From Micrococcales bacterium 31B (GTDB lineage: Bacteria; Actinomycetota; Actinomycetes; Actinomycetales; Dermabacteraceae), in assembly GCA_022803075.1 (NCBI GenBank), contig JAFFTF010000002.1, positions 164,090 to 228,089 of the forward strand: DNA of 64,000 bases. The letters are read 5' to 3'. Below the pieces are notes generated by a model. The model was not told the origin of the DNA. It saw only the letters and a program-made list of their open reading frames with translations, and did no database searches. Shown piece by piece: positions 4,795 through 22,045 of the stretch. The position numbers and the translations under genes are program-made. The stretch's first letter is position 1; every line of letters begins with the position of its first letter.

Positions 4795-6138
<1,344 letters not shown>

Positions 6139-7119
6139 CTAATCGTCTAGCAGGTCGGCACTCAGGTTCGCGTCGGTCGCGGGAATACCCAAGTCGTGGG
6201 CGCGCTTGTCGGCCATGTTGAGCAGGCGCCGGATGCGACCGGCCACGGCATCCTTAGTCAGGGGCGGGTCGGCCAGCGCCCCGAGCTCTTCGAGGCTCGC
6301 CTGCTTATGCTGAACGCGCAGGAGGCCCGCCGTGAGCAGGTGGTCGGGAATGTCCTGACCGAGAATATCGAGGGCGCGCTCGACGCGCAGGCCCGCGGCG
6401 ACGGCGGCCCGCGCCGAGCGGCGCAGGTTGGCGTCGTCAAAGTTGGCGAGTCGATTGCTGGGCGCGCGCACTTCGCGACGCTGGCGACCCTGTTCCCAGG
6501 ACTGCGCGCACTCAGCGGCACCCATGTGCCCGAGCATCACGGAGATCGCCTCCCCGTCGCGCAGGACCACGCGATCCATGCCCCGCGACTCCTTCGTCTT
6601 GCTCTGCACGCCGAGCCTGCGCGCGATGCCGACCATGGCCAGGGCCACCTCGGAACCGGGGCACACCAGTTCGAGGGCCGACGTGCGTCCGGGCTCGGTC
6701 AGGGTGCCGGCGGCGAGGAACGCGCCCCGCCAGGCGGCCTCCGCGTCGTGCGCTCCCCCGCCGATCACGGCTGGCGGCATGCCCTTGACGTGCTGACCGT
6801 GCGCATTGAGAAGGCCCGCTTGGCGAGCCAGCAGGTGAGCGTCCTGGGCGACACGAACGGCATGACGGGTGGCGCGGCGGGTACCCGTGGCGGCAACTCG
6901 CGCGACGTGAGCGGGATGCTTGTAGAGGTCTTGGATGTTGGCGGCGAGCCGGTCCGCGGCGGCCTCGGAGTCGAACTCAGCCTCGAGGGAGACCGTGTGC
7001 TTGTCGACGGTGAGGACAGCAGCAAATCTGAGCATTGCAGCTGATTCCGCACGGCGGCAGCAGACGCGGGTCTCGGAGTGGTTCGTGAGTTCAGTTTTGA
7101 CGGAGGACGTGAGGGCCAT
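6139..7119 (-). CDS. whiA: DNA-binding protein WhiA
   Basis: Sporulation/cell-division regulator WhiA, conserved in Gram-positive bacteria. The 326-residue protein begins with [10 protein letters not shown], continues with a LAGLIDADG-homing-endonuclease-like domain (segments [33 protein letters not shown]) and ends in a helix-turn-helix domain with [18 protein letters not shown]. The ATG at 7119 is chosen because family members start at MALTSSVK; an upstream in-frame start would add 26 unrelated residues. It is the last gene of uvrA-uvrC-rapZ-yvcK-whiA. Confidence 0.95.
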
Positions 7120-7212
7120 AGCGGAAATTGTGCCATGAATGCAGCTGAAGTGACGGGTGCAGTTACCTGGCGAAACTGCGGCGTAGCACAGCGTCACAAA
7201 ATGTGTGGCCTG

Positions 7213-8205
7213 TCACACGTCGGAGTACGTGCCGCCGAACACGTCTCGGTAGGCGGCCGCGAGGCGCAGGGGGTCGTGCCGGGGGTCGTTCGAACTCATG
7301 GCCACCTGACGCAGCAGCAGTTTGCCTCCCCGCGCCGCCACCGCATCGGCCAGCTCGTCGGTGTCTTCGATCATCGTGGGGTCGGCGATCACGGCGTCTA
7401 CCTTTAACTGACCGGACATCTCGTGAAACACCTCGAAGTGCTGGGTAGCGGAGAGCCCGCCCGTTTCTTCTTTCGGCGACGCGAGGTTCATCGTGAGGCA
7501 GATGCGCGAGTCGGTCTCGTGAATCGCCTCGACAAAACTGGGCACGAGCAGGTGCGTGAGCACCGAGGTGTACCACGAGCCGGGGCCCATCACGACCCAG
7601 TCGGCGTCCCGCAGCGCTTTCAGTGCGGGCTTGCAGGGGGTGGGGTTCTCGGGCACCAACGCGATGTGTCGCACGCGCCCCTCGGTTTTAGCAACCTGCG
7701 CCTGACCGCGCACCTGTACCAGCTCGCCGTTTGGCAGTTCGACGTCCGCGACGATGTCGAGCGGGTCGACCGCCATGGGGAGCACGCGCCCGCGGGCACC
7801 GAGCAGGCGCCCCACCCAGTCGAGCCCCTGCACGGGGTCTTCCAGAATCTCCCACAGGGCCGTAATGAGGATGTTGCCGACGGCGTGACCGTTCATGTCG
7901 CCCTCGGAGGTGAAGCGATGCTGCAGCACGTCGGACCACACGTGGCCCCATTCGGTGTCGTCGCAGAGGGCCGCGAGGGCCATGCGGAGGTCACCGGGGG
8001 GCAGGATGTCGAACTCGGTGCGGAGGCGGCCCGAGGAGCCTCCGTTGTCGGCGACCGTCACGACGGCCGTGAGCCGGTCGCTGAGGTGTCGCAGCGCTGT
8101 GAGGGATGCATAAAGCCCGTGACCGCCTCCGCACGCCACGACCTTGGGCGAGACGACGTGGCCGCTGCGGCCCGCCCATCTGGGGCGACTCTTCGCCTCA
8201 GCCAT
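7213..8205 (-). CDS. yvcK: Gluconeogenesis factor YvcK/CofD family
   Basis: Protein of the CofD/YvcK fold, related to 2-phospho-L-lactate transferase. In Bacillus it is needed for gluconeogenic growth and envelope integrity and binds UDP-GlcNAc. The 330-residue protein shows the family motifs ACGGGHGLY, TVADNGGSSGRLR, GDMNGHAVGN and GPGSWYTS. The ATG at 8205, one base after the rapZ stop codon, is chosen because an upstream start would overlap rapZ. It is part of the conserved rapZ-yvcK-whiA trio. Confidence 0.94.
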   Translation of the reverse strand: MAEAKSRPRWAGRSGHVVSPKVVACGGGHGLYASLTALRHLSDRLTAVVTVADNGGSSGRLRTEFDILPPGDLRMALAALCDDTEWGHVWSDVLQHRFTSEGDMNGHAVGNILITALWEILEDPVQGLDWVGRLLGARGRVLPMAVDPLDIVADVELPNGELVQVRGQAQVAKTEGRVRHIALVPENPTPCKPALKALRDADWVVMGPGSWYTSVLTHLLVPSFVEAIHETDSRICLTMNLASPKEETGGLSATQHFEVFHEMSGQLKVDAVIADPTMIEDTDELADAVAARGGKLLLRQVAMSSNDPRHDPLRLAAAYRDVFGGTYSDV

Positions 8206-14311: not shown

Positions 14312-14386
14312 TCCACAAGTATGGCCACATCCTCACGCCGAGACCCCGAACGCCCTTACAGTGGCGGCATACGTCAGGAGGAATTA

Positions 14387-15103
14387 ATGCAGATACTGCC
14401 AAGTGGGCGACCGGGCCGAGCCCTAGTCACACTACTGGTGGCCCTCGTTGCCGCGCCCCTCGCCGCCAGCGCCACCCCACCGGCGTCCCCGAGCGCCAGC
14501 GGGAGCCCGAGCGCCAGCGCCACCACGCCGGCGTCCCCCAGCGCGAGCGCCACCCCGCCCCCCGCCCGAACGAGCCGCGAGGTGGCCCTCAAGGAGTGGC
14601 GCACACAGGTTGAGGCCATGGGCTATACCGTGCAAGACATGCCGGCGGCACAGATGCCCGCGCGGCCCGACCCGGGCGCCTGGACTCCCCCGCCAGCCAC
14701 CTCGCGGGCCCTCGACGACGCGGCGGCGATCAGCGCCGCCGAGGCCTTCGTGCAGGCGTACTCGTACTTTCACGTGACGCTGGACCCTTGGCCCATGCAA
14801 TCACGAGCGTTACTCGGATGCACGACCTGCGACTCGCTGCGTGCTGTGCAGGATTCCTATACGAAGTTTCGCGGCTACTCGATCGGCGCACCCCTCACGA
14901 TCACCGACCCCGAGGTGGCAGACAGTTCAGAGACGGGGCGTACCGTCATCGCAACGGTGCACTACCCGGCCCAAGACGTTTACCTCCCCGAGCTGAACCT
15001 GCACCTGAGGAGCCCCGAGGCCACGGGTGAGTGGTTGTTTTTCTACTCAACGGCCGACGGCGCCCAGGGCTGGTACCTCGCCGAAGTCCGGAGGAACTCA
15101 TGA
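14387..15103 (+). CDS. Secreted DUF6318-like protein (first of three)
   Basis: A 238-residue exported protein of unknown function. It has an N-terminal signal peptide (about residues 11-31), a Pro/Ser/Ala low-complexity linker (about 33-64) and a C-terminal domain with a FVQAYSYFHVTLD helix followed by GCTTCDSL. The helix-then-CxxC arrangement resembles the actinobacterial DUF6318 family, which I assign only by pattern. The ATG at 14387 has the ribosome-binding site AGGAGGAA. Its stop overlaps the next gene's start (ATGA), so the two are translationally coupled. Confidence 0.6.
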   Translation: MQILPSGRPGRALVTLLVALVAAPLAASATPPASPSASGSPSASATTPASPSASATPPPARTSREVALKEWRTQVEAMGYTVQDMPAAQMPARPDPGAWTPPPATSRALDDAAAISAAEAFVQAYSYFHVTLDPWPMQSRALLGCTTCDSLRAVQDSYTKFRGYSIGAPLTITDPEVADSSETGRTVIATVHYPAQDVYLPELNLHLRSPEATGEWLFFYSTADGAQGWYLAEVRRNS

Positions 15104-15795
15104 TCACCACACGTGGCATCTTGCGCAGCCTCGCAACGGCCGCAGTCTGCCTCGCGGCAACGGCGGCGCCGTGGTCGGGCGCGGCAGCGATGCCCGCGGG
15201 GGCGATGCCGAGCGCTGTGCAGGTGGCTTCTGACTGGGTCGAGCCCGAGCACAGTGACGCTCGCATCGCGGAGCACAACGACGCCCTGGCCAAGGGATAC
15301 GTGCATAAATGGGTGGACCCCGAGACGTTTCCTCCGCGCCGTGAGGCGCTGCCTCTCGTGACTCCCCTGAACCGGTTTCATGGTCACGGGGACGCGGCAG
15401 CCGTATCGCTCGTCAATGGCCTGCCCGCCACCCTGAACTACTTGTATCTCACGGGAGATGAGGCCCCCTTCGAGGCGCTCGCACGGAGGTGCACCTCATG
15501 CCTGGCCATCACCGAGCCGCTCACGCGAGGCATCGCCGCAGACGCCTACACGGTGGCCGACCCCATCACGTTCAGTGACACTCACACTGTTACGACCTTT
15601 GCGAAAGACAAGCACTTCGAGGGGTTAATGGTGGTGGTTTCTACCGTGCACTGGCCCACGCGAGACCGTTTTGTGCCGAGCCAAAGCCTGCACGTGCAGT
15701 CGCCGGAGGCCACACAGAAGTGGCTGTTCATTGTCGCCAATGCGAGTGACGCAGACACCGTGATTCTGCTGCACATGGAGCCCTACCAACCCTAA
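15100..15795 (+). CDS. Secreted DUF6318-like protein (second of three)
   Basis: A 231-residue exported protein with a signal peptide (about residues 1-29, ending in an Ala-rich stretch). It shares the core of its neighbours: a variable N-terminal part, a helix, then RCTSCLAI as the CxxC segment, then beta-rich segments with VVSTVHWPTRD and LHVQSPEATQKWLF, which matches LHLRSPEATGEWLF of the first gene. The start overlaps the preceding stop and follows GGAGGAA. The function is unknown. Confidence 0.6.
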   Translation: MITTRGILRSLATAAVCLAATAAPWSGAAAMPAGAMPSAVQVASDWVEPEHSDARIAEHNDALAKGYVHKWVDPETFPPRREALPLVTPLNRFHGHGDAAAVSLVNGLPATLNYLYLTGDEAPFEALARRCTSCLAITEPLTRGIAADAYTVADPITFSDTHTVTTFAKDKHFEGLMVVVSTVHWPTRDRFVPSQSLHVQSPEATQKWLFIVANASDADTVILLHMEPYQP

Positions 15796-15813
15796 GAACT
15801 CGGAGGTCACATC

Positions 15814-16596
15814 GTGAACGGATCCAACCCAACATTCACTGACAAGTCCGCGCCGACCCGCCGTTTCAAACAGGTATCGTTACGCAGCGCGATCCTCGGG
15901 GTTGTTCTCTGCGCGGCCCTCACGGGCTGCGACATCAACGCCACCACCCCGGCGCCCAGCACGTCGTCGCGCTCCGCGTGGAGCCCGCCCGCGCTCGATC
16001 CCACACAGACCGACGTATTCGAGCGCGCCAGCGGCCTCGGCTACGCGGTCACCCGGGCCGACCCCGCGACCTTTCCGGCGCGCCCCGCCACCCCCGAGGC
16101 GCCCGTGGCACCCGTGGCGGAGGGACCACCCGACTCGCAGGCTGCGGTCGAGGCGGCCGTGCGGCACTTCTTCGCGGCCCGAGATTACGCGCTGCAGAGC
16201 GGGGACGGCTCAGCGTTAGACCGTGCGAGTTCTGACTGGTGCTTTTCCTGCGGGCTGCTGACTCACGAGGCCTCCGCACTCGCTTCAGCCGGGGGCTACT
16301 CCATCTCGTCCGCCACGACCGTTACTGACATTCGTATCCTCACTAACCACAACGGCGACCTGAGCGTCGCCGCGAGGGTGCAGCAACCGGTCTACGACAC
16401 CTATGACCCGGCCACCGGGGTCCACATACGCCGCCCCGCCACGGACGGCGACTGGGACCTCAAGTTCGTCTGGGGAAGCGTCGCGTTCGCCGACACCGAA
16501 GACACGTCCGACACAGCCAGCCCCACCAACACAGCCAGCCCGGCCGACCCGCCCGAGCGGTGGCTCGTGTACAGCGCCGCCCCACGCCTCTACTAG
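15814..16596 (+). CDS. DUF6318-like lipoprotein (third of three)
   Basis: A 260-residue protein with a GTG start after CGGAGGTC and a lipobox LTGC at residues 33-36, so the mature protein should be lipid-anchored outside the membrane. The core has YALQSGDGSALDRASSDWCFSCG, the best match among the three to the DUF6318 pattern. The C-terminal region holds a TASPTNTASPADPP repeat not seen in the siblings. It is the last gene of the three-gene unit; the AT-rich island begins after it. Confidence 0.62.
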   Translation: MNGSNPTFTDKSAPTRRFKQVSLRSAILGVVLCAALTGCDINATTPAPSTSSRSAWSPPALDPTQTDVFERASGLGYAVTRADPATFPARPATPEAPVAPVAEGPPDSQAAVEAAVRHFFAARDYALQSGDGSALDRASSDWCFSCGLLTHEASALASAGGYSISSATTVTDIRILTNHNGDLSVAARVQQPVYDTYDPATGVHIRRPATDGDWDLKFVWGSVAFADTEDTSDTASPTNTASPADPPERWLVYSAAPRLY

Positions 16597-16627: not shown

Positions 16628-16850
16628 CCCGCGCGGGTGCGAATCATGCGTTTCAAGGCACACGTTAACCCCGTTGCTCGCCGCGTACAGGCCCAATTTT
16701 TTGAGGACGCACGCAGCCCGCGCATCCACCGCCTCGCGCGATTTCTGCGTGGCTGGCACCTCGTGAAAATCGATGTCGGCGGTGAGAGCGCCCGTGACAC
16801 GCATGCGTGCAAAGCACCCCAGGCCGCAGTGGCGTCGATGTCCTGAATTC
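16628..16850 (-). pseudogene. Decayed internal fragment of a sugar-phosphate isomerase gene
   Basis: About 220 bases match an internal part of the intact isomerase gene (20769 to about 20990) in the same orientation, roughly four fifths identical by eye. Translated pieces include DFHEVPAT, CLETHDSHPRG and a GIQDIDATAAWGA segment matching GVQAINAAEAWGA, but they fall in different frames. The ends of the gene are missing. It marks the left border of the AT-rich island. Confidence 0.85.
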
Positions 16851-17078
16851 CTACGGCGATACCAGACGCAAATAAACCTGAGGAATAGAAGTGATCCTGA
16901 CAACCTGTAAGTACAACGCCCAAATAGTCTCATTCCTATCCGGGATTTAGAGTTTGGCGATTTAACTAATTCTAAGGCAGAAGGTTCAGAGGCGAACTCG
17001 GAAATTGAATCATATCACCAACAACCCTCATGACTTGGGAGTTGCCGACGGCAAGTAGTTATTATTCGCTACACCACA

Positions 17079-17690
17079 TTAAACGGCATCCCCTGACGAA
17101 AAGCCTCGCGAACTCGTCCAACTAACTACCACGAATGAAAGAAGAGCCAGGACAACACTCACCGAGTCTGTAGTTCCATCCGCTGGCCTAATAAAGACAC
17201 ACCACCACATTACTTCGCTAGCGGAGTTTTTGCCGATTGCAGTTATCAAAAAGTGTAGCACTATTAAAATAAACACAGCCACTTGCGATCCTAGGAGAAC
17301 AAACCCAATTGTCGTAAATGCACAGAATAATGAAACGTTTCTGAGAGACCAATCTGAATTGGAAGTGAGTGTCAATCGATCGGCTATTCCCGCTGTGCCT
17401 ACGCACATGACGTAAATTACTAGCAAACAGTTAAGCCGCCAGACAAATGCCCGACGCGTGAAGCATTCAAGGTCCGTTCTTAGCCTAATTAGCAGCTGCA
17501 GGACGACGAGGGCCCAAACACTGTGAGCCAAGGGCTGCGTGTCGAGTCGAACCCCCGAATTAATCGGAAGAAGAATAACCCTATTCGCACAGATCAAGTG
17601 AGCCAATATACACACGGGCGATAGCGCAATGGCAATGTAGACCCCACGCAACCGCAGGCAGGTGTGAACAAGCCTCAACCTAACGCCCAT
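17079..17690 (-). CDS. Membrane protein of unknown function (island gene 4)
   Basis: A 203-residue hydrophobic protein with about five to six predicted membrane segments (roughly residues 16-36, 50-67, 84-103, 118-136, 137-153 and 175-191). No family is recognised. It overlaps the end of the preceding membrane-protein gene by 11 bases, so it is probably translated with it and may complete an ABC transporter membrane part. It is rich in Leu, Val and Ile and uses AT-ending codons more than the chromosomal backbone. Confidence 0.6.
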   Translation of the reverse strand: MGVRLRLVHTCLRLRGVYIAIALSPVCILAHLICANRVILLPINSGVRLDTQPLAHSVWALVVLQLLIRLRTDLECFTRRAFVWRLNCLLVIYVMCVGTAGIADRLTLTSNSDWSLRNVSLFCAFTTIGFVLLGSQVAVFILIVLHFLITAIGKNSASEVMWWCVFIRPADGTTDSVSVVLALLSFVVVSWTSSRGFSSGDAV

Positions 17691-18960
17691 CTATAAATTT
17701 CTCCGTTTCGCCGCTTAAGGGACTACAATCTCGCAGAAAGTGAACCAGTTCCAGCATGCGTTCATCTTTTGATTCACGAAATGCCCTAGAAAACATGACA
17801 TAATCCGAAATTGAATTGGGCAGCCCTTGCACACCCATTATGTGCTGCGTATCTTTACTCTCCATCCATCCAAGAAATATGGATGTTGCAATGTAATTGC
17901 GGTGCACGCTCGCGTCACCTCCATCGCCACAGGACCGGGAACCAATCAGCACCTCTTGAATGGTCAACCACCTGTTGGTAGGGTCGCCACTTCGAATGGG
18001 ATCGTAGTACAGCGATTCTGGTCCGTCACTGAGGCCAAGAGTAATTTTCTGCGGCAGTGCTGCCGACAAAGAGGTCGGGAGCGCAGCATATGCGGCACGC
18101 AGAGCTCTGCCAAGATTTTGCTCAGAGTAGTCAGCCATTACCTGGGGCGAACACACTTCAGGAAATTCACCATGGCACGACATGACAAGGTTCTTTCGCG
18201 GCACAAGCCAAGAGTCTTCGCCTGCCAACGAGGGTAGGGCGAACACAAGGATGGCACCCGCAGTCACCAATGATATACCGCGAATGATATTTTGGCGTGA
18301 AACTAAAAACGCGACGAGTAATACAGTCACCAACAAAATTAGGCCTCGAAATAGCAGTTTTGAGGGGTCGGTAACTAAAAATACGGTGCTTGGAGTGCCT
18401 GCACCCGGGGTAAAGAAATTTCGGATATAGAAACTCAGGCCTAAAAAATTGATCATGATCATGGAAAGCCCAATAATTGGAGCAACAATCACCGATCGAA
18501 AAAGAAGTCCAGTTATATTTCCCATGCAAACCAGGCTTGCAATCAAGGAATATTGCGCGACAATGAATCCCCAATCTACTGAATTGATAGGGTCCTCAGA
18601 TTGCCAGTAGGTCAGACAGACAGACCACACCATTAGTATCGCATGTATAGAACAAACTAATATAGCGAAAGGACTTAATACACTTAAAGTGGCGAATCGA
18701 AGTCGATGCCGATTCGGCGCCAAATCAACGAAATTTCGTACGACTCGCTGTGTAATAATGCTCGCGGCAATGAAATACATAGGTGCGACATATATGAGAT
18801 AAACGCCCGTAACGCTTATAGCCGACCCTATCTCGATGCGTTCGAGTGGCGGCCTCACCACGTACATCACGTAAACACCCAATGTCGTCGATCCCAAGCA
18901 TGCGACTGCTGCAACGAGCTTTTCTGTCGTGCCCCAAACTTTGAGCGCGCTTGGAACCAT
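17680..18960 (-). CDS. Seven-segment membrane protein with outer domain, ABC-associated (island gene 3)
   Basis: A 426-residue protein with about seven hydrophobic segments in residues 10-248, then a soluble C-terminal domain of about 175 residues. With an odd number of segments and a cytoplasmic N-terminus, that domain would lie outside. It contains MSCHGEFPEVCSP, a possible disulfide pair. The gene begins 2 bases after the ABC ATPase stop, so it is the likely permease partner. The overall plan resembles the seven-segment membrane proteins of lactococcin-972-type bacteriocin loci, but I cannot confirm homology. Confidence 0.6.
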   Translation of the reverse strand: MVPSALKVWGTTEKLVAAVACLGSTTLGVYVMYVVRPPLERIEIGSAISVTGVYLIYVAPMYFIAASIITQRVVRNFVDLAPNRHRLRFATLSVLSPFAILVCSIHAILMVWSVCLTYWQSEDPINSVDWGFIVAQYSLIASLVCMGNITGLLFRSVIVAPIIGLSMIMINFLGLSFYIRNFFTPGAGTPSTVFLVTDPSKLLFRGLILLVTVLLVAFLVSRQNIIRGISLVTAGAILVFALPSLAGEDSWLVPRKNLVMSCHGEFPEVCSPQVMADYSEQNLGRALRAAYAALPTSLSAALPQKITLGLSDGPESLYYDPIRSGDPTNRWLTIQEVLIGSRSCGDGGDASVHRNYIATSIFLGWMESKDTQHIMGVQGLPNSISDYVMFSRAFRESKDERMLELVHFLRDCSPLSGETEKFIDGR

Positions 18961-18962
18961 AA

Positions 18963-19610
18963 TTATTCAACCTTCCTGCTTTGTGATCCAATTTTGAAAA
19001 TCTCACCACCCATTACCTTTGCATCGTCTTCTAAGTGTGTGGAAAAGATTACAATCCGATCGCTGGATAATTGACGAACCACGTCCCTCACTGAAGTACG
19101 TGCCTCCTCATCGAGACCTACGGTAGGTTCGTCCAGCAATAACACCGGCCTGTCGAACATGATTGCTTGCGCGATGCCTACCCTGCGCCTTTGACCGCCC
19201 GAGAGAGTGCCCAATTTAGCAGTGGCGAGATGCTCCAAGCTGACTTTCTCCAAACTTGTCGCTACTTCTTTCGTGGCCCTTTTAGCGTCTGCTCCGCACA
19301 TGTGAGCTAGAAACTCGAGGTATTGGGAAACTTGCAGGTGGCGCGGCAACCGAAATTCTTGCGGACAGAAACCGATAACCTCGGTACGCCGCGTGACCGG
19401 CACTGGTTCATCGTTCAGGAGCATTTGCCCTGTGCTTGCGACTCCCTTACCCAGAATGCCTTTGAGGAGGGTAGACTTTCCTGTCCCGTTCGGAGAGACA
19501 AGGAAAGTTATCCCTCTCATGAACGCCTGGCTCAAGTCCTTAATGACCCAGGTGACCGGCGCAAACGGAAACCTCTGGTATCCGACAGAGTAGTCTTTGA
19601 GTTCTAGCAT
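18963..19610 (-). CDS. ABC transporter ATP-binding protein (island gene 2)
   Basis: A 215-residue single ABC ATPase domain. Walker A is SPNGTGKST (near residue 39), the Q-loop lies in GFCPQEF, the signature is LSGGQRRR, Walker B is VLLLDEPTVGLDEE, and the H-loop is in IFSTHLEDD. The subfamily looks like exporters or resistance/immunity transporters (CcmA-like) rather than importers. It lies 30 bases after the secreted-protein gene and 2 bases before the membrane-protein gene, so the four genes look like one operon. Confidence 0.88.
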   Translation of the reverse strand: MLELKDYSVGYQRFPFAPVTWVIKDLSQAFMRGITFLVSPNGTGKSTLLKGILGKGVASTGQMLLNDEPVPVTRRTEVIGFCPQEFRLPRHLQVSQYLEFLAHMCGADAKRATKEVATSLEKVSLEHLATAKLGTLSGGQRRRVGIAQAIMFDRPVLLLDEPTVGLDEEARTSVRDVVRQLSSDRIVIFSTHLEDDAKVMGGEIFKIGSQSRKVE

Positions 19611-19640
19611 TCCGAACCTCGAGGAAGTCGCTGATGGCTT

Positions 19641-20180
19641 TTACTTGAATGAGGAACCGCGTATGATCCCGGCTGAACAGTGATCTGGCGAGAGAGTCAA
19701 GTCAAAGCACACGGAGAGTCGCACCTCAGCAGAGTTATCGCCTGCGCTTCGACTTACCCACATGTCTGTGTACTGGGTGCTCGTCCTCGTGATGCGCGGT
19801 GACTGCGTGACTCCTGCGGAATACCACCCGCTTGTGCAACTCACGCCCCCGCCCGAACTACTCACGCTGCTGACGTAGCAATAGGCTCCATTCTTCTTCC
19901 AGTTGGCATCGGTGTAGGCACCTCGGTCCATCCCGCTGTTTGAATAGTTGACTTGCAGCCGAGTGTTTGCCGTGAGCTCAATGCGAGTCCCGCGGTTTTT
20001 GTCTTCGACCTGTCCGCGCATGTAACCGGAATGCCACGCTTGCGCCCCATAGACATTGGTAGAAATGATTTCTCCCCATGCCCCAGTGGCCGCATATGCA
20101 CCCGTTGCTGCGAACGCTCCAGACAGCACTGTCGCCGCCAAAGCGGTGAGTGCGACTGCTTTCACCCTTGAAAGTTTCAT
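19641..20180 (-). CDS. Secreted four-cysteine protein of unknown function (island gene 1)
   Basis: A 179-residue exported protein. The signal peptide has charged MKLSRVK, a hydrophobic core and likely cleavage after residue 30 (GAYA). The mature part, about 149 residues, is rich in Ser, Thr, Gly and Tyr and has four cysteines at residues 101, 115, 158 and 168, which could form two disulfides. The ATG at 20180 is chosen because it starts a good signal peptide after an AGGGCG ribosome-binding site; upstream codons only translate the 16-bp repeats. No family is recognised. Being first in an operon with an ABC transporter suggests a secreted bacteriocin-like or signalling protein, but this is inference. 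Confidence 0.65.
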   Translation of the reverse strand: MKLSRVKAVALTALAATVLSGAFAATGAYAATGAWGEIISTNVYGAQAWHSGYMRGQVEDKNRGTRIELTANTRLQVNYSNSGMDRGAYTDANWKKNGAYCYVSSVSSSGGGVSCTSGWYSAGVTQSPRITRTSTQYTDMWVSRSAGDNSAEVRLSVCFDLTLSPDHCSAGIIRGSSFK

Positions 20181-20204
20181 AAATCGCCCTCGATTTCGTA
20201 CCAA

Positions 20205-20284
20205 GAGCCCACGAACCTGTGAGCCCACGAACCTGTGAGCCCACGAACCTGTGAGCCCACGAACCTGTGAGCCCACGAACCTGT
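20205..20284. repeat. Five perfect tandem copies of a 16-bp unit
   Basis: GAGCCCACGAACCTGT is repeated five times without a mismatch, 25 bases upstream of the secreted-protein start codon. If the promoter lies beyond 20285, the array is in the mRNA leader; an AT-rich TATAAG/TATACT area is present there. Sixteen is not a multiple of three, and each unit adds about one and a half helical turns. Confidence 0.97.
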
Positions 20285-20391
20285 GAGAATGCCACCTATT
20301 AGATAAGTGACCCTCGACTCTTTTAGAGTACTTATACTATTGAAGCCATGCAAACGCGAGAATAAGATTCTTAAGGTATGTGATTCTTTAG

Positions 20392-21246
20392 CTATTTTTC
20401 AATTGACGACAACCTCACCCGCGCGGCCCAGCTCGCAAAATCGGCGACGGCCACGTCGAACTCGGGGGCGCCCGAATGCCAGGCCTTCTCCGATTCGAGG
20501 CACAGCGTGCGCGCCGTGCCTCCGGACTCGCGCAGTAGGGCCGCAAACTCGTCGAGCGGCACCGTACCCGCACCCAACAGGGTGGGGACGCGAGACTGCG
20601 GCAGCGGGGCGTCCTTCACCTGCAAAGACCCGTGCCGCAGGAACGGGCCGAGGGCGGCAAGTGTGTCTCTCAGCGGCTCCCCCACGCGGTACGGGTGCAT
20701 CACGTCCCACACGGCACCGAAACTGCCCTGCGGCGCGTCCACGCGCCGCAACACGTCGAGCACGTCAGCCCCGCGCGGGTGCGAATCGTGCGTCTCGAGG
20801 CACACGCTCACCCCGGCTCCCGCCGCATACCGCGCCAATTTTTCGAGGACGCCCGCGGCCCGCACATTCACCGCCTCGCGCGGTTCCAGCGTGGCTGGCA
20901 CCTCGTGAAAATCGCTCTCGGCGGTGGGAGCGCCCGGAAACACGCGCACGTACGTTGCTCCCCAGGCTTCGGCGGCGTTGATGGCCTGCACTCCCGCGCC
21001 GAGAATCAGCGTCAGGTCGGCGTCCGCGGCGACCCGCACGTACGAGGCGAGGCCCGCGACCGTGAGGCCCGCCTCTGCCAACCTCGCCCGGCGCTCGGCG
21101 AGCTCGCGCCGCGTGGTTTCGGGGGCCGAGAGCTCGCCCGCACCGTGCCGCAGCTCGAGGGCTACCTGCTCGTGCGGGGCAAGCGCGGCAATGACCGCTT
21201 CGAGGCCCCAGCCGGGGGCGCCGAGGGTGGAGGCGACGAGTTGCAT
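20392..21246 (-). CDS. Sugar phosphate isomerase/epimerase, intact copy
   Basis: A 284-residue xylose-isomerase-like TIM barrel (AP endonuclease family 2 fold). Metal-site motifs are visible: the CLETHDSH segment with Glu and His, WDVMHPYRVG, LQVKDAP, and CLESEKAWH with the last metal Glu. The start MQLVASTLG at 21246 fits family N-termini; an upstream extension lacks homology-like sequence. The last codons are AT-rich and abut the island. A degenerate copy of its middle part lies at 16628-16850. The substrate is unknown. Confidence 0.85.
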   Translation of the reverse strand: MQLVASTLGAPGWGLEAVIAALAPHEQVALELRHGAGELSAPETTRRELAERRARLAEAGLTVAGLASYVRVAADADLTLILGAGVQAINAAEAWGATYVRVFPGAPTAESDFHEVPATLEPREAVNVRAAGVLEKLARYAAGAGVSVCLETHDSHPRGADVLDVLRRVDAPQGSFGAVWDVMHPYRVGEPLRDTLAALGPFLRHGSLQVKDAPLPQSRVPTLLGAGTVPLDEFAALLRESGGTARTLCLESEKAWHSGAPEFDVAVADFASWAARVRLSSIEK

Positions 21247-21373
21247 GACTCTCCTGTGACACGAGGTGGAAACCGCATTCCCCCACATCGTATCGCGCAA
21301 CCTGAACAAGGCGTCGCGCGCCACCCCACTCGTCTGTCCGCCGCCCGTGCGCCCGATGCGGTACGTTGTGGGC

Positions 21374-22045
21374 ATGAAATACGACGGCAACGTGCAGGTC
21401 GACGGCGCGAGCGCCGTGCGCCTCTTCGACACCCTGGTGCTGCGCAAATGCGCGGTTGGCCCCCTGAACAACAACGCCTACCTGCTCACCTGCCGGGTGA
21501 GCGGCGCGCAATTGCTGATCGACGCGGCTGACAACCCGCAGCGCCTGCAGCGCCTCATCGTGGAGGGCTCGCCCGACAAGCGCCTCGACACCATCGTGAC
21601 CACCCACTCTCACTTCGACCACATCGGCGCGCTCTCGGCCATGGTGAGCGCGACTGGCGCCGATACCGTAGCGGGGGCCGCAGACATCGCAGCCATCACG
21701 ACGCCCATTAAGCGTGCGGTGCAGCAAGGCGACACGGTTCGCATGGGCGTTCACGACCTCGAGGTGATCCACCTGCGGGGCCACACGCCCGGGTCCATCG
21801 CCCTCGTGTTTCGTGAGGACGGCGACGGAGCGGCGCACATCTTCACGGGCGACTCGCTCTTCCCCGGCGGAGTGGGCGCGACTCAGGGCGACGCCGACCG
21901 CTTTCGCCAGCTCTACACCGACGTCACCGAGCGCATTTTCGACCGCTTCGACGATCACACGACCATCTACCCCGGCCACGGGTCCGACACCACGCTGGGC
22001 GCCGAGCGCCCCCAGCTCGCGCAGTGGCTCGAGCGCGGCTGGTAG
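21374..22045 (+). CDS. Metallo-beta-lactamase-fold hydrolase (glyoxalase II-like)
   Basis: A 223-residue MBL-fold enzyme with metal-binding motifs THSHFDH, RGHTPGS, TGDSLFPGG and YPGHG, in the order seen in glyoxalase II-like hydrolases. It may act on thioesters or lactones; the substrate is unknown. The ATG at 21374 is preferred; there is no strong ribosome-binding site and the transcript may be leaderless. It is divergent from the isomerase gene. In related actinobacteria an MBL-fold gene commonly lies between uvrB and uvrA, as here. Confidence 0.85.
   Translation: MKYDGNVQVDGASAVRLFDTLVLRKCAVGPLNNNAYLLTCRVSGAQLLIDAADNPQRLQRLIVEGSPDKRLDTIVTTHSHFDHIGALSAMVSATGADTVAGAADIAAITTPIKRAVQQGDTVRMGVHDLEVIHLRGHTPGSIALVFREDGDGAAHIFTGDSLFPGGVGATQGDADRFRQLYTDVTERIFDRFDDHTTIYPGHGSDTTLGAERPQLAQWLERGW

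Follow-up and report, generated by a model that had tools for sequence, protein, structure and literature searches.

In a 64,000-nucleotide stretch of the actinobacterium Micrococcales bacterium 31B (hereafter the window; host genome 3.9 Mb in 31 contigs), four minus-strand genes make up the entire gene content of an AT-rich island (Table 1). The guanine-plus-cytosine (GC) fraction is 0.498 across positions 16851-20391 and 0.663 in the rest of the window, where other stretches of the same 3541-base length never fall below 0.629 (mean 0.661, standard deviation 0.012). GC at third codon positions (GC3) tells the same story, at 0.62, 0.57, 0.48 and 0.51 in the four genes against a median of 0.85 for the other open reading frames of the window. 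Led by a secreted protein, the genes continue with an ATP-binding cassette (ABC) ATPase, a 426-residue membrane protein and a 203-residue membrane protein, at spacings of 30, 2 and -11 bases. The initial annotation had described just such an arrangement, with closely spaced minus-strand genes, an island more AT-rich than its flanks and an exported leading protein with cysteines at 101, 115, 158 and 168; the reading frame coordinates, base composition and signal peptide (to about residue 30) all agree with it.

Table 1. The island, its four genes and its borders (positions in the window)
Feature	Position	Strand	Remarks
AT-rich island with four genes	16860..20391	none	GC computation
Secreted protein, 179 residues, ATG start	19641..20180	minus	signal peptide to ~residue 30; Cys 101/115/158/168
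ABC ATPase, 215 residues, ABC-2 (DrrA/GldA/ABCA-like) lineage	18963..19610	minus	PF00005, E 7e-24
Membrane protein, 426 residues, 7 hydrophobic segments, C-terminal outer domain	17680..18960	minus	Cys 262/270/344/412
Second, small membrane protein, 203 residues, ~5-7 hydrophobic segments	17079..17690	minus	homologs same-placed in relatives
Decayed partial isomerase copy, left island border	16628..16859	minus	233 nt, 80% identity to 20770-21002
Intact sugar-isomerase/epimerase-like gene (PF01261), right border, outside module	20392..21474	minus	Pfam match
16-bp direct repeat, 5.2 copies, leader of secreted gene	~20205..20287	none	just before ribosome-binding site

The secreted, 426-residue and 203-residue proteins gave no match beyond chance in Pfam, NCBIfam or PHROGs, and scans of the module with PADLOC and PHROGs returned only generic ATPase matches. 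The secreted protein and the small membrane protein lie outside every family in the databases searched; for the former, this bears out the earlier impression that it resembles neither lactococcin 972 (Lcn972) nor any described family. The ATPase is of the usual ABC kind, its best NCBIfam models being GldA, PQQ, NodI and DrrA, and its family profile places ABCA transporters nearest among solved structures. Members of the 426-residue family have about seven hydrophobic segments followed by an outer domain, about 170 residues long in the window protein, with four conserved cysteines. The last of these is absent in L052, whose operon is interrupted by a transposase-like gene. Several relatives have outer domains that match DUF7224 (PF23866) below its cut-off, and that of L105 exceeds the gathering cut-off (28.1 versus 27 bits); the window protein gave no DUF7224 match at the 27-bit cut-off. 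From the alignments of its relatives, the outer domain appears to be distantly DUF7224-like. The function of DUF7224 is undescribed, and a literature search found no paper on it or on the four-gene module.

The proposal that this is a horizontally acquired module, in which a putative secreted effector is paired with ABC genes, is supported by the recurrence of the four-gene order elsewhere. The arrangement is seen in at least 10 genera, which represent several families, as well as in two plasmids of Streptomyces, and its flanks are unrelated. When 297 genomes of the order were searched with a single sequence, one weak match appeared, in Phycicoccus sp. Soil802 (L002/L014), where the same four genes stand in identical order, and further loci came from stepwise widening of the search. 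Besides those on plasmids, loci with the secreted gene first are L012, L013, L014, L046, L048, L085, L086, L089, L133, L134 and L135. The plasmid loci, also with the secreted gene first, lie on the linear plasmids NZ_CP085174.1 of S. longhuiensis, near IS5 and TniQ genes, and NZ_CP070262.1 of S. californicus. Gene lengths hardly vary across loci (about 143-179, 215-273, 396-426 and 182-212 residues), and 4-base overlaps between neighboring module genes are common. Flanks vary except in the two closest loci of the genus Phycicoccus, both placed after pyruvate kinase. In 14 of 18 loci, GC3 is lower in the module than in its surroundings (Wilcoxon p 0.034, with a crude choice of flanks). The recurrent order, unrelated flanks and near-constant gene sizes exclude chance, and we conclude that the module is a cut-and-paste four-gene set of many soil actinobacteria and Streptomyces plasmids.

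Several other searches added no loci. Pattern scans of genome contigs found none beyond that in Phycicoccus, a two-row profile (A1) run across the class found no new one, and neither tblastn of the window proteins against plasmids nor a profile scan of viral contigs gave a match. Matches L003, L004 and L015 turned out to be unrelated genes. A third Streptomyces plasmid, from Streptomyces sp. NBC_01166, carries the ATPase and both membrane proteins without an annotated secreted gene (L140, 3580-6142), with a gene for a Doc toxin some 3 kb away.

The secreted gene is linked to the other three genes, which we refer to as the transporter. A profile built from seven secreted proteins alone was run over 188 genomes, where five matches were the profile's own members and four were new chromosomal genes (E < 1e-3). 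The transporter comes immediately after three of the new genes (L133, L134 and L135); the fourth (L132) sits at a distance of about 140 bases from a contig end. In both plasmid matches found by secreted queries, the transporter is likewise next. Using secreted-protein queries alone, the transporter thus stands behind all five new decidable secreted genes, in line with the predicted co-occurrence of the secreted gene with ABC genes across distant strains. Two weaker profile matches (G736 and G688, E 0.003-0.006) were rejected as signal-peptide matches; neither has a transporter nearby.

The dependence is one-sided. We built a tree of 34 permeases, leaving out matches without a standard ABC neighbor (L106, L108-L110 and L112), and used a rough signal-peptide screen to score whether a secreted gene is present. 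It is missing beside 22 of the 34 transporters, or about 21 given a remnant found later at L051, and the label of with or without a secreted gene switches several times across the tree. Sister permeases may even differ, as do L048 (with the gene) and L088 (without it), which group with support of 100/98. Decay of the secreted gene beside an intact transporter is seen twice: the L135 copy has a frameshift and no signal peptide, and that of L051 is reduced to a C-terminal remnant. Additionally, the divergence of the secreted protein and that of its partners are correlated (Mantel r 0.75-0.87, p 2e-4).

Within the secreted family, C158, D166 and C168 are invariant in all 13 aligned proteins, although L089, aligned earlier, lacks counterparts of both cysteines. 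The C101/C115 pair has counterparts only in L132, L133, L134, L089 and, displaced, L085; of all relatives, L132 comes nearest to the window protein (36% in the alignment). The secreted proteins carry their own Sec-type signal peptides. A second secreted family, marked by an ESRxW motif, stands ahead of a transporter of the same type in Streptomyces-like genomes (L098 2007-2977, with two copies in that locus, L096 6132-6548 and L105 3481-3921). Its members align with the window family over the signal peptides alone and are otherwise unrelated to it.

Because of this asymmetry, and also of the export by Sec, the carriage on plasmids and the parallel divergence, we favor the reading that the module encodes a Sec-exported antibacterial protein and a dedicated ABC transporter for self-immunity, to which we assign a probability of about 0.6 on sequence evidence. 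The island would then be an acquired toxin/self-immunity cassette. Its first gene would encode an antibacterial protein that is small and folded, leaves the cell by Sec and is held by one or two disulfides (predicted C101-C115 and C158-C168), and the other three would form a dedicated ABC-2-type transporter made of the ATPase, the seven-segment permease and the smaller permease. The outer domain of the larger permease may bind the cognate protein on the cell surface, and the transporter would hydrolyze ATP to drive it off the membrane or its target, so that the producer is protected in the way that LanFEG transporters protect against lantibiotics. Taken together, the module looks like an undescribed family of an antibacterial protein with its protecting pump. 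A broader proposal, for which we consider the odds even, is that these are a new class of Sec-secreted, disulfide-stabilized actinobacterial bacteriocins, in which the four-cysteine outer domain of an ABC-2 transporter recognizes its own toxin, the transporter serves as a platform for at least two unrelated secreted families, and many strains keep the transporter alone as immunity. If true, a large family of antibacterials that are folded proteins, encoded together with their immunity genes, has gone unannotated in actinobacteria, Streptomyces plasmids included, and escapes the family libraries used here; it would offer a test system for how ABC transporters protect against an entire folded protein instead of a small peptide.

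Several observations weigh against this reading. L133 has an in-frame TAG in the seven-segment protein beside an apparently intact secreted gene, and L134 has no recognizable small membrane gene. Co-inheritance in one operon likewise yields correlated distances, and a transporter that lacks a secreted gene could serve a different substrate. Structure gave little help, as AlphaFold predictions for the secreted and 426-residue proteins (two sequences each) were unusable, with predicted local distance difference test (pLDDT) scores of 30.5 and 39.9, and no relative turned up among solved structures.

Three other explanations were weighed. The secreted protein might be an extracellular ligand read by the outer domain, with the transporter acting in signaling or envelope stress; a secreted ligand and its outer receptor domain would likewise be expected to co-occur and to diverge in step. 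We consider this unlikely, as no regulator, kinase or sigma factor lies inside the module at any locus read, and transporters are often retained without the ligand, even where its gene has decayed. Slightly less probable is a role in lipid or drug transport for the ATPase and its two permeases, with the secreted protein as an accessory factor of the envelope. The ATPase is indeed nearest to ABCA/DrrA/GldA-type transporters, and transporters without a secreted gene are common, but the patchy distribution in the single-sequence search (few of the 297 genomes of the order), the plasmid carriage and the second, unrelated secreted partner are all unlike a housekeeping function.

Least probable in our view is a dedicated exporter or maturation machine that exports or folds the secreted protein. 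Although the overlapping genes of a single operon fit such a role, the secreted proteins bear their own Sec-type signal peptides, which make an exporter unnecessary, and the secreted gene is missing beside most transporters. The one-sided dependence, with decay of the secreted gene beside a kept transporter, argues for a toxin and its immunity instead of a dedicated exporter.

The borders of the island offer a hint of its history. The decayed isomerase fragment on the left, with 69% protein identity to the intact gene, is cut at a short CGCGCGGG repeat, and the intact copy lies across the island. A piece of isomerase at the far border fits either insertion beside the isomerase gene or duplication of that gene. 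We sought an ortholog of the flanking isomerase for an empty-site comparison and found no clear one in the family relatives searched. The 16-bp repeat in the leader of the secreted gene is unique in its own genome and was not found upstream of the secreted gene in the relatives checked; it is possibly a regulator site or an expression switch. Farther out, three adjoining plus-strand genes for exported or lipoprotein-like products occupy positions 14321-16596, and because the last two weakly match DUF6318, they are probably diverged tandem copies.

One of the closest known systems is that of Lcn972 and streptococcin B (PF09683, TIGR01653, TIGR03608), which also combines a small Sec-exported protein with a permease and an ABC ATPase. 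In Lcn972 operons, a Sec-exported bacteriocin is accompanied by two genes presumed to act in immunity and transport, roles that are experimentally unverified (PMC4055356, PMC11796350). Lipid II binding and inhibition of the septum are further marks of the Lcn972 family. By inspection, the window module shares the Sec-type signal peptide and the operon with ABC genes. Both systems occur in one bacterial family: PF09683 searches turned up genuine Lcn972 genes in two genomes from the family to which the window belongs (L149 and L150). The window's own genome has a sub-threshold Lcn972-like gene (G000:C26:179059; E 0.004, 20 bits versus a 22-bit cut-off), and in the surrounding region (L151, G000:C26:174000-186000) a permease/ATPase reading frame directly follows this borderline gene (4826-7888).

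The components of the two systems differ. Neither PF09683 nor TIGR01653 matched the window secreted protein or its relatives at E<=1, whereas the control bacteriocin of L149 scored 28.4 bits with TIGR01653, and hhalign with a true Lcn972 member gave 0.4%. The window ATPase scores 80 bits with TIGR03608, at about the 20th rank, and so falls outside that type; for the L149 and L150 ATPases this model ranks first, at 165-178 bits. Lcn972 loci have one large permease (671 residues in L149), unlike the two-permease window module, whose permease profiles found no match in the L149 and L150 Lcn972 loci. TIGR01654, for large 7-transmembrane (TM)/FtsX-like permeases, gave no match in the window module, but the control permease of L149 likewise matches no NCBIfam model, so this model does not separate the two systems. 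The differing toxin, permease and ATPase class argue that the window module is a system separate from Lcn972, albeit one that by analogy plausibly works in the same way.

Another possible counterpart is described from Brevibacterium, where bacteriocin genes weakly similar to Lcn972 share an operon with an ABC ATPase gene and genes for two transmembrane proteins, and the four-gene operon belongs to a genomic island located beside a tRNA gene (PMC5719810). The weak Lcn972 homology of the precursor is the authors' own report. Compared by description only, these operons could be an intermediate or of the same kind as the window module. In BceAB-type transporters, a single 10-TM permease has its outer domain between TM7 and TM8 (PMC5786555); the window module instead has seven segments, a C-terminal outer domain and a second permease. 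LanFEG, with one ATPase and two six-helix permeases, expels lantibiotics from the membrane (PMC5786555). The window module shares with LanFEG/NisFEG and CprABC the use of one ATPase and two different ABC-2 permeases, and the L046 ATPase scores 132 bits, below the cut-off, with the lantibiotic-protection model TIGR03740. Unlike the six-helix permeases of LanFEG, which lack a large outer domain and are encoded in a lantibiotic cluster, the larger window permease has seven segments and a four-cysteine outer domain; the four-gene island carries no lantibiotic biosynthesis genes, and the molecule protected against would be a folded protein of 110-150 residues. Even so, the division of labor that we propose is the same as that in Lcn972 and LanFEG (PMC4055356, PMC11796350, PMC5786555).
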